Source of the DNA: Faecalibacillus intestinalis
Lineage (GTDB): Bacteria > Bacillota_I > Bacilli_A > Erysipelotrichales > Coprobacillaceae
Assembly (NCBI RefSeq): GCF_003024685.1
Contig: NZ_PYLQ01000022.1
Coordinates: 1-44,303 of the forward strand
Length of the DNA stretch: 44,303 nt
Direction: 5' to 3'
Shown one piece after another: positions 10,242 through 15,172 of this stretch (its first letter is position 1; every line of letters starts with the position of its first letter). Position numbers and translations under genes: made by a program. The notes beneath the pieces are model-generated. The model had not been told where the DNA came from. It ran no database searches and saw only the letters and a program-made list of their open reading frames with translations.

Positions 10242-10264
10242 GTCACATACTTATTCGTTTTATA
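10231..10264. terminator. Bidirectional terminator between the CYTH and GGDEF-EAL genes
   Basis: AACGAATAAGT pairs with ACTTATTCGTT across a 5-base loop (10233-10259), with A and T runs at either side so that it works both ways. It includes the CYTH stop codon and ends at that of the GGDEF-EAL gene. Confidence 0.88.
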
Positions 10265-11909
10265 TTTCATAGCTTTCCATAAACACACTTAAAGAAACCG
10301 ACCTACCATAATAGAATCCTTGAATATAATCTGGCTTTAATAACATAATACGTTCAAGTTCTTCCTTTTCTTCTATTCCTTCAATACAAATCTTAACACC
10401 TACGCTATGAGCCATATCCACCATATGTTTTAGCAACATATTTTCATACTCATTTGAAAGTGCATTTTTCATCAATGTTCGATCTATTTTTATATAATCT
10501 GGTTTTAAATTATAAAGATAGTGGAAATTAGAATATCCTGTTCCAAAATCATCTAAAGCAAGTAAGATATTTTCTTTCTTTAAACCATTACAAAAATCAA
10601 TAAAGTTTTTATTAGATTCAATAAAACCACTTTCTGTAAGTTCTATAACCAATTGATTATTTTCTATTTTATAATTTTTTATAATATTTAAAATATCATT
10701 TAATGCTGGTGTTTTTAACACTTGAACATAAGACATATTAATTTGTACTTTAATATTTGAAAACATACTTACAGCTTTTAATGATTGATCTAAAACCCAT
10801 CTACCTACAGGAATAATCAAATCACTTTCCTCTAATAATGGAATAAATTCTAGTGGTGAAATTTTACCAAATTCATCACATTCAAATCTAAGCAATGCTT
10901 CCATACTATGAATCTTTTCTGTTTTCATATCAATAATTGGCTGAAAATAAACTTCAAATCCTTTAAATTGTTGGTTAACTGCTTTATGTAATTCTTTTGT
11001 TAATTTATTTTTTCTTAAAAACTCTTGATAAGCTTCCTGCTTAAAAATCGTATATGTATTTTTTCCATTTATTTTCGATTGATTTAAAGCAAATTCTGTC
11101 CATTGCATAATAGAATTATAACTTTTATTAGGATAATCATGAAAATCTAGAATACCTGCAGAAATCGTTAAATAAATATCATAATTAATAGATTCTACAT
11201 AACGTGTAATACTTCTACGTATTGCTTTATAAAGATCTCTTGCATCTTCTTTACTGCCAACAACATCCATCACAATAAACTCATCAGCGACAATCCTATA
11301 AAGTTGTTGATTTTTAGTTAATAACTTTTTAATACAATTTCCAACTTGTTTTAAAGCAACATCTCCATATTTTACACCGAAATTTTCATTAATATTTTTA
11401 AAATCATCAATATCAATTCTTAAAATAAAACCTTGATTAATATCTTCATGAATTGGATAAATCAAATTCTTAAAACTCATTTCACCTAACAAACCACTAT
11501 CATTATCCGCAACTTGTCTTTTTCCAATTTCATTAATACAGCCAATAATATATTTAACATTCCCATCACGATCCTTAATCGATTTACTTCGACAGTTGAT
11601 CCAAATAGGAATACCGTCTTTTCCAATCCAACGATATTGTAAATTATGAAAACTCTTTTTACCTGAAACCATTTTATTCATATCAGATAATAACATTTCT
11701 AAATCATCTTTATATACAAATTTTTTATGTGCTGGTAAAGAATCACTAAACTCATAGCTTGGTATATTAAATCTTTTCATAGCATGTGGGGAAATAAAAT
11801 AATTATCTCGATCAATATCCATCACAAATAAATAATCATCAATACATTGATCTAAAATAAGTATAATTTCTTTATACGTCTTTATAGCCTTTGCATCTAA
11901 TCTATCCAT
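10260..11909 (-). CDS. PAS-GGDEF-EAL protein, probable cyclic-di-GMP phosphodiesterase
   Basis: The 549 residues have no membrane segment. A PAS domain (about 20-135, with YRWIGKDGIPIWINCRSK) is followed by a GGDEF domain (about 150-295) and an EAL domain (about 305-545). The GGDEF signature is VADEF at 207-211, so both glycines of the active site are lost, while the metal-binding IDIDDF is kept. It should not make cyclic-di-GMP but may still bind GTP. The EAL domain keeps its key residues: Glu337 (EAL), Asn391, Glu423 (ELTE), Asp453-Asp454 (DDFGTG), Lys474, Glu510 and Gln530. Hydrolysis of cyclic-di-GMP is therefore likely. It follows the unknown membrane protein gene by 20 bases and is probably co-transcribed. 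Confidence 0.92.
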   Translation of the reverse strand: MDRLDAKAIKTYKEIILILDQCIDDYLFVMDIDRDNYFISPHAMKRFNIPSYEFSDSLPAHKKFVYKDDLEMLLSDMNKMVSGKKSFHNLQYRWIGKDGIPIWINCRSKSIKDRDGNVKYIIGCINEIGKRQVADNDSGLLGEMSFKNLIYPIHEDINQGFILRIDIDDFKNINENFGVKYGDVALKQVGNCIKKLLTKNQQLYRIVADEFIVMDVVGSKEDARDLYKAIRRSITRYVESINYDIYLTISAGILDFHDYPNKSYNSIMQWTEFALNQSKINGKNTYTIFKQEAYQEFLRKNKLTKELHKAVNQQFKGFEVYFQPIIDMKTEKIHSMEALLRFECDEFGKISPLEFIPLLEESDLIIPVGRWVLDQSLKAVSMFSNIKVQINMSYVQVLKTPALNDILNIIKNYKIENNQLVIELTESGFIESNKNFIDFCNGLKKENILLALDDFGTGYSNFHYLYNLKPDYIKIDRTLMKNALSNEYENMLLKHMVDMAHSVGVKICIEGIEEKEELERIMLLKPDYIQGFYYGRSVSLSVFMESYEI

Positions 11910-12770: not shown

Positions 12771-12799
12771 AAAAAAGAATCAATCTAATGGCTTGATTC
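12771..12799 (-). terminator. Terminator of spx
   Basis: On the minus strand GAATCAA pairs with TTGATTC across 9 bases, followed by six T. The spx stop codon is inside the loop. Confidence 0.8.
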
Positions 12800-13252
12800 C
12801 TTTTCTCTATCCCTTTCATATTCTTTTTTAAAATTCAAACAATCTTTATTGCTGAATTGTGGACAACGATCCATATCATGACATTCAGCTAACTTTCTAA
12901 GTTCTTTAGGAATAAAGACTCTTATTTCTTCAGCATTGTAACCAACTTGAAATCTTCTTTCATCAATCATAATTGGTCTTTTTAAAACTGATGGATTTTC
13001 CTGTATAAACTTAATTAAATCATTGATTTTCATTGAATCAATGTCAATATCATTTTCTTTAATAATTTTGCTTCTTTTGGAAATAATATCATCCGTACCA
13101 TTTTCACTACGTTCTAATAATTCTCGAAGTTCTGATTCTTTTAATAAAGTAGAAAAAATATTCTTTTCTACATAAGGTATTTGATTTTCATTTAACCAAG
13201 ATTTTACTTTTCTACAAGAAGCACAACTTGGGGCGGTATATATACGTATCAT
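12785..13252 (-). CDS. spx: Spx-family redox regulator with a cysteine-bearing C-terminal extension
   Basis: Spx binds the alpha-subunit C-terminal domain of RNA polymerase and switches on thiol-stress genes when its CxxC motif is oxidised. Here the switch is Cys10-Ala-Ser-Cys13, at the same positions as in Bacillus. The rest follows the family (ERNIFS-like EKNIFST, GTDDIISKRSK, KRPIMIDERRFQVGYNAEEIRVFIP). The protein is 155 residues against about 131 in Bacillus. The extra tail has Cys124, His125, Cys130 and Cys138 and a charged end instead of the usual LAN end. I chose ATG 13252 because AAAGGAGTGA precedes it; an ATG 11 codons upstream has no such site. It is divergent from the trpS T-box leader. 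Confidence 0.93.
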   Translation of the reverse strand: MIRIYTAPSCASCRKVKSWLNENQIPYVEKNIFSTLLKESELRELLERSENGTDDIISKRSKIIKENDIDIDSMKINDLIKFIQENPSVLKRPIMIDERRFQVGYNAEEIRVFIPKELRKLAECHDMDRCPQFSNKDCLNFKKEYERDREKESSH

Positions 13253-13317
13253 ACAATCACTCCTTTGTAAATAATTATACAACAATTTTAAACTTTGTAT
13301 ATCTTTTTTTAAATATC

Positions 13318-13346: not shown

Positions 13347-13352
13347 GTTTTT

Positions 13353-13567
13353 AAAGACTTTGAAGGAACATAAGTAAATTATATTAAATGTTATAGAAAG
13401 CTTATGGTTGATGGAAATAAGCCATTGGTATAATAGAAATTGGGGTTCTGGAGTTACAAAAGGCACAAGTCTTTTGTCGCTAATCGCGTTAAAATCAAGA
13501 GCGTATATTTTATACGAATTAAGGTGGTACCGCGTTTATAACGTCCTTTTTTAAGGACGTTTTTTAT
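13353..13567 (+). promoter_or_regulatory. T-box riboswitch leader controlling trpS
   Basis: A T-box leader binds uncharged tRNA and lets transcription proceed when the amino acid is scarce. The hallmark AAGGTGGTACCGCG, with TGGTACCGCG at 13525-13534, is complete. It precedes the terminator ACGTCC-loop-GGACGT with a T run (about 13540-13566); the T-box sequence would form the antiterminator. Upstream are an AGAAAGC-like stem I start (about 13393) and a specifier region with TGG, the tryptophan codon, at 13441-13443 (a second TGG is at 13449-13451). A small hairpin CGTATA-TTTT-TATACG lies at 13502-13516. The tRNA-Trp specificity agrees with the gene it controls. Confidence 0.93.
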
Positions 13568-14580: not shown

Positions 14581-14600
14581 GCATTGCTTATTTCTTTTTG
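14572..14600. terminator. Bidirectional terminator between trpS and the DUF3603 gene
   Basis: AAGAAATAAGC pairs with GCTTATTTCTT across ATT (14572-14596), followed by T on the plus side. Both genes' stop codons are within the stem. Confidence 0.88.
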
Positions 14601-15172
14601 TATTCCTTTTTAGTAAATTCATAGAATAGGATTTCATGTATAAATGTATAGCCCTTAGCTATTTTATTTTTTAAATGATTATATTTTTGGATACTTTGTG
14701 CATCTTCGATATTTAACTGTCTACATAACATCAAAAAATCATCATAATTTTCCATATAAAGTTCATCAATTCTTTGTTCAATAAATTGCTTTTTTAACCT
14801 TTCCTCTCTTGTTAGACCATATTCTTTCATTTCTCCTTCATCATACATTTGATAATGAATATTAGACAGTTCTAAAGCAGCAATCTTTTTATTCATTTTA
14901 TCACGATCACAAAAATCAAAAACACTTCGATAACAAAGCTTTCCTTGATCATCTGTTTCAATCGCTAAAGCATAATGACCATCTCCTATTGCAAATACTT
15001 TTTGACACAACTTTTGATCAAAAATGTGTAAACATCCATAAATAAAATCATGGAGTGTTTTTTGATCTACTTTAAAACATGAAAGTGTTGAAATGATTTC
15101 GATATCATCACCATTTGACCATTCATATGGCTCTAATAGTTCTTCATCTTCTTTAACCCAATTAACAATCAT
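14588..15172 (-). CDS. YjbA-like protein (DUF3603)
   Basis: This protein of 194 residues has unknown function. It resembles Bacillus YjbA in its start (VNWVKEDEE...EPYEW) and mostly in the block YGLTREERLKKQFIEQRIDEL, where YjbA has a GLTRKERQIKQ block. It has no signal, no membrane helix and no catalytic motif that I can name; Bacillus YjbA is somewhat longer. A GAGGAGG site precedes the start. Its position next to trpS, as in Bacillus, supports the assignment. Family membership is fairly likely; the role is unknown. Confidence 0.75.
   Translation of the reverse strand: MIVNWVKEDEELLEPYEWSNGDDIEIISTLSCFKVDQKTLHDFIYGCLHIFDQKLCQKVFAIGDGHYALAIETDDQGKLCYRSVFDFCDRDKMNKKIAALELSNIHYQMYDEGEMKEYGLTREERLKKQFIEQRIDELYMENYDDFLMLCRQLNIEDAQSIQKYNHLKNKIAKGYTFIHEILFYEFTKKEYKKK

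Follow-up and report, generated by a model that had tools for sequence, protein, structure and literature searches.

The Spx protein encoded in a stretch of Faecalibacillus intestinalis DNA (44,303 nucleotides, hereafter the window) carries a C-terminal tail whose cysteines are conserved across about 20 families of its class. In low-GC Gram-positive bacteria, the main regulator of thiol stress is Spx. Nearly all that is known of it comes from Bacilli, in which YjbH and ClpXP set the Spx level. The explanation that we favor, tentatively, is that the tail holds a metal or redox centre, specific to the lineage, that has replaced the YjbH/ClpXP degradation signal and would tune Spx stability or activity in cis.

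The window Spx and its tail

The spx gene begins at an ATG at 13252 with AGGAG just 5′ of it. A TTG at 13285, given as the start in the list of open reading frames, is disfavored; the ATG is the likelier start codon. The features of the gene are given below, with residues numbered from this ATG. Counts refer to alignment A1, which consists of 91 tail-bearing proteins selected for at least two tail cysteines and is biased for cysteine counts.

12788–13252, minus strand: spx coding sequence, 155 amino acids, matching NCBIfam PRK01655 Spx (E 6e-50) over residues 1–121; stop codon at 12785–12787
13214–13225, minus strand: N-terminal CxxC redox switch, Cys10-Ala-Ser-Cys13, invariant in A1
12788–12889, minus strand: C-terminal tail, residues 122–155, with no counterpart in Spx of Bacilli proper
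12881–12883, minus strand: codon of Cys124, the first tail cysteine, Cys in 89 of 91 A1 sequences
12863–12865, minus strand: codon of Cys130, the second tail cysteine, within CPQF, Cys in 90 of 91 A1 sequences
12839–12841, minus strand: codon of Cys138, the third tail cysteine, at a position that varies in the window's family
12794–12847, minus strand: predicted tail helix, residues 136–153, with pLDDT of about 60–71 in an AlphaFold2 model (about 59–71 for the tail)

By every core feature checked, the window protein is a true Spx. Its Pfam profile match is ArsC, the subfamily model NF002459 scores 168.6 bits against a curated cut-off of 123, and the SpxA/Spx equivalog models score under their cut-offs. 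Two features listed for Spx (PMC12822559), the alpha-CTD contact residue Gly52 and the RPI motif, are both present; in A1, Gly52, Arg92 and Pro93 are invariant and Ile94 is found in at least 90% of sequences. The core is modeled confidently by AlphaFold2, and a fold comparison of residues 1–125, which leaves the fold of the tail aside, gave 3gfk_A as the best match (Z 20.4, rmsd 1.2 Å, 118 residues). Among solved structures, Spx proteins from B. subtilis and others are the closest relatives, matched over residues 1–121, and the NCBIfam Spx models (131–132 positions) cover residues 1–121 or 1–123 and no further. Because curated models and solved chains alike stop matching at residues 120–123, the approximately 34 residues from 122 to 155 are extra.

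The cysteines and histidines of the protein are C10, C13, C124, H125, C130, C138 and H155. An earlier note on this DNA had placed Cys124, His125, Cys130 and Cys138 in an extra tail past the normal end of Spx, and the residues are exactly as it described. AlphaFold2 models the tail with moderate confidence; in a second model, of an Spx from a relative (f7), the core is the same and the tail uncertain. A Pfam scan of isolated tails gave no match above cut-off, and the sub-threshold matches were weak, such as zf-CCCH_4 at E 0.02 in the tail of one relative. The spacing of the tail cysteines recalls CCCH zinc fingers and presumably also resembles the C-x2-C-x5-C part of SPASM Fe-S domains; either likeness may be taken as a lead only.

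Conservation of the tail cysteines

Of 98 relative genomes, 95 gave an Spx match, a count that takes in distant ArsC-family matches, and Spx was also read in 61 named or metagenome loci. The window's family, judged by named loci, has Faecalibacillus, Thomasclavelia, Massilimicrobiota, Longibaculum, Sharpea and Kandleria among its members. All 35 family loci read contain C-x3-6-C-[PQ]-x-F, with C124 and C130 kept throughout; a third tail cysteine is present in 22 of them at varying placement, and the other 13 have only two. The condition that the earlier note named as refuting its idea, a lack of conservation in close relatives, is thus not seen: C124 and C130 are kept, although Cys138 is movable. 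The arrangement C-H-x4-C-x7-C of the earlier note has to be given up as a ligand set, since His follows the first tail cysteine in just 2 of the 35 loci and the third cysteine shifts position. The terminal His, also mentioned there, is present (H155) and is not conserved.

The wider class was represented by 80 Spx sequences, sampled evenly across families and picked regardless of the tail. At least three tail cysteines occur in 62 of these, two in 5, one in 4 and none in 9, so that 67 sequences, spread over about 20 families, have at least two. The usual spacing is C-x2-4-C-x5-C, mostly as C-x3-C-x5-C or C-x2-C-x5-C, and is often followed by Asp or Glu and then Tyr or His. In this sample 8.0% of tail residues are cysteine, more than chance would give, compared with 0.11% in the Spx core when the CxxC is set aside. 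In A1, with its cysteine-based selection, C124 and C130 are conserved at the level of core residues (>97%), and the class-wide third cysteine (71 of 91 sequences) aligns with Lys136 of the window Spx, two residues before Cys138. Outside the cysteines, the sequence of the tail and its last residues are poorly conserved. A heme CP-motif reading of Cys130-Pro was rejected, as Pro follows this cysteine in only 45 of the 91 sequences.

Spx of the sister class, Bacilli proper, ends differently. In a sister-class sample built around G414, a genome whose Spx is canonical, matches mostly stop at residue 120–121, and no tail cysteine occurs in any of the 26 distinct C-termini read; these proteins have 131–133 residues and end in EAQRLVN or a related sequence. 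A tree of the 118-residue core splits tail-bearing from canonical Spx with 100% SH-aLRT. Many of its inner forks lack resolution, and it is compatible with either a gain of the tail or its loss in Bacilli. Taken together, the split of the core tree and the tail-less ends of the sister class indicate that the tail marks one of two Spx branches.

Concerted loss and the CxxC switch

Among the 75 tails of at least 20 residues, at least three cysteines are found in 62, two in 5, one in 3 and none in 5. Independent loss predicts about 20 tails with two cysteines, 2.7 with one and 0.1 with none; counted as sequences and not as loss events, tails without cysteines are therefore far above and two-cysteine tails far below expectation. 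L140, L151 (f11) and L156 (f14) have a full-length tail with zero cysteines, and their near relatives have three. The placement of these proteins among three-cysteine relatives implies that at least some complete losses were separate. The tail cysteines tend to vanish together, which suggests that they act as a unit.

The CxxC is intact in every sequence with at least two tail cysteines apart from L168, a frameshift-like paralog. The second Spx paralogs of the window's family (L160–L167) are tail-less and have a degraded CxxC as well (for example, GSQSC, GSQSS or GSRSG); such paralogs may compete with Spx at RNA polymerase while being blind to redox state. The association fails in the reverse direction, as L109, L118, L170 and L203 have a CxxC and no tail cysteines. 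The tail is absent from several lineages in the class, the one named tail-less locus of note being that of the aerotolerant genus Erysipelothrix (L086/L203). This single case would fit an oxygen-labile centre.

YjbH, ClpX and the gene neighborhood

Degradation of B. subtilis Spx by ClpXP depends on the C-terminal end of the protein, with YjbH promoting the recognition; YjbH and the ClpX zinc domain are the sites at which oxidation acts (PMC8957991, PMC5506225). A search for YjbH (PF13743) gave no match in the window's genome (G000), and the same search finds YjbH in B. subtilis and in most sister-class genomes with canonical Spx. Within the class, PF13743 is above cut-off in 10 of 296 genomes and gives a strong match (E<1e-20) in three, all of them in f22; most of the others are weak. 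Three candidates, L094, L095 and L183, were rejected as YjbH because they look like DsbA/FrnE-type proteins. The sister class has YjbH in 40 of 43 listed genomes with canonical Spx (genomes that are not independent of one another), and in 34 of those 40 the gene lies 4.6–9.2 kb from spx. Strict replacement of YjbH by the tail is rejected as a rule, since YjbH coexists with a cysteine-tailed Spx in the three f22 genomes. The YjbH-like proteins of f22 (L180–L182) carry a CSHCWAL motif and offer a natural case in which both systems are present.

The ClpX zinc domain was searched with PF06689, a profile that covers this domain and not the AAA core. It gave no match in the window's genome and was found in 1 of 40 relatives, with the controls B. 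subtilis and L. lactis positive. The lone ClpX with a zinc domain (L236 in G012, 1489–2679) adjoins a gene for a DeoR-type regulator; it may be a recent acquisition, or ClpX may have been lost in the order.

The canonical C-terminal end, of the EAQRLVN or LAN type, is absent from the window Spx, and the tail stands in its place. By the features checked, the window Spx is not an Spx under YjbH/ClpXP control. With neither YjbH nor the ClpX zinc domain detected in this genome, the YjbH/ClpXP end seems to have been replaced by the tail and not modified, which goes beyond the altered degradation that the earlier note had proposed. The protein is the Spx ortholog of its lineage, with a class-wide cysteine cluster in place of the end that ClpXP and YjbH normally recognize; that this tail binds metal is a possible account, still short of probable.

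The genes around the window's spx (trpS, CYTH, NadK and RluD) recur in many related loci. We take this neighborhood to be shared with B. subtilis and to correspond to its trpS-spx-yjbH-yjbK-ppnK region, minus the segment from mecA to yjbH. No YjbH gene lies between spx and the CYTH and NadK genes at the window locus. The expected place of YjbH is occupied by a gene for a PAS-GGDEF-EAL protein (10263–11909, minus strand), which is found near spx in just a few loci. Divergent to spx, a T-box leader (13351–13551, plus strand, 119.5 bits) lies upstream of trpS and has a terminator-like hairpin at 13540–13561. The gene adjoining trpS (14591–15172, minus strand) encodes a 194-residue protein that has no Pfam match and is conserved in 18 loci; its place is presumably that of YjbA in B. 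subtilis.

Possible functions of the tail

A metal site or a second redox switch in the tail is plausible from the sequence comparisons, and the concerted loss of cysteines supports it. In the preferred reading, the tail cysteines would bind a thiol-ligated metal, either zinc or an Fe-S cluster, with the C-x2-4-C-x5-C cysteines as ligands in the class and two invariant cysteines plus a movable third in the window's family. Upon oxidation or metal loss, the tail would fold differently, which may alter Spx stability or the contact of Spx with RNA polymerase. The tail would thereby be a second sensor on the same chain as the CxxC switch; in Bacilli proper, stability sensing resides in separate proteins, YjbH and the ClpX zinc domain, both of them largely absent here. 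In 13 of the 35 family loci, the two tail cysteines could not by themselves complete a Zn(Cys)4 or Fe-S site; further ligands would have to come from other residues, from Cys10/Cys13 or from a second subunit. A more sweeping version, which we consider doubtful, would extend the idea to the whole branch: a metal or Fe-S sensor in the Spx tail, stability sensing in cis and not in trans via YjbH and ClpX, and loss of the tail in aerotolerant or reduced lineages such as Erysipelothrix.

The main rival to a metal or redox centre is a metal-free thiol switch, in which C124 and C130 would form a disulfide or exchange with Cys10/Cys13 under oxidative stress. It is unlikely, but it accounts well for the window's own family, whose invariant tail cysteines are C124 and C130 alone, with a third that may be missing, as a disulfide needs just two cysteines; the company that tail cysteines keep with an intact CxxC also agrees with it. 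However, most of the class has three or four cysteines at fixed spacing, often C-x2-C-x5-C-[DE]-[YH], a pattern more like metal ligands than like a disulfide pair.

The link with the CxxC can also be read as a mixed four-cysteine metal site, built from the tail and Cys10/Cys13, that would lock the redox switch until the metal is lost. Family members with two tail cysteines keep Cys10/Cys13, which makes four, and the tail-less paralogs are without the CxxC as well, yet L109, L118, L170 and L203 retain the CxxC with no tail cysteines, and a mixed site appears rather improbable. A similarly poor prospect, and a distinctly improbable one, is a tail that a different protease or adaptor (ClpC/McsB or Lon) would use as degron or docking peptide, with the cysteines in a structural role. 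The canonical degron end, YjbH and the ClpX zinc domain are all gone, and a related Erysipelotrichales genome is reported to encode ClpC (PMC12786226), but the poor conservation of the non-cysteine tail sequence and of the final residues is unlike a docking peptide. A neutral lineage-specific extension, suggested by the variable length and residues of the tail and by the lineages without it, is very hard to reconcile with C124 and C130 being conserved like core residues across about 20 families and lost together.

Relation to known Spx systems

Spx of Bacilli (B. subtilis; PDB 3GFK, 1Z3E, 6GHO and 7F75) shares with the window Spx the ArsC-like core, the CxxC at 10–13, Gly52 and the RPI motif at 92–94. 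The window Spx is about 24 residues longer, with a cysteine-cluster tail in place of the EAQRLVN end. Control by YjbH and ClpXP is comparable only in how it works: it too is a thiol- and metal-sensitive control of Spx level, located in YjbH and the ClpX zinc domain (PMC5506225, PMC8957991), whereas here Spx itself carries the cysteines, with the partner proteins mostly absent. The OseR/YusI-type Spx relatives of Clostridia (PMC11481553) are likewise ArsC-family regulators of anaerobes linked to the O2 response. OseR has CXXV and no Gly52, unlike the window Spx with its CxxC and Gly52, and the part of the source consulted mentions no cysteine tail on OseR. A literature search, confined to open-access papers, turned up no account of an Spx with a cysteine tail.

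A sister branch of Bacilli that includes many gut anaerobes keeps Spx mostly without YjbH and, in the relatives searched, without the ClpX zinc domain too. In that branch, a conserved cysteine cluster sits where the degradation signal would be. The cysteine tail suggests that Spx has a further, as yet undescribed element for sensing redox state or metal, and the sensing and survival of oxidants by these anaerobes thereby become directly testable with a few point mutants.
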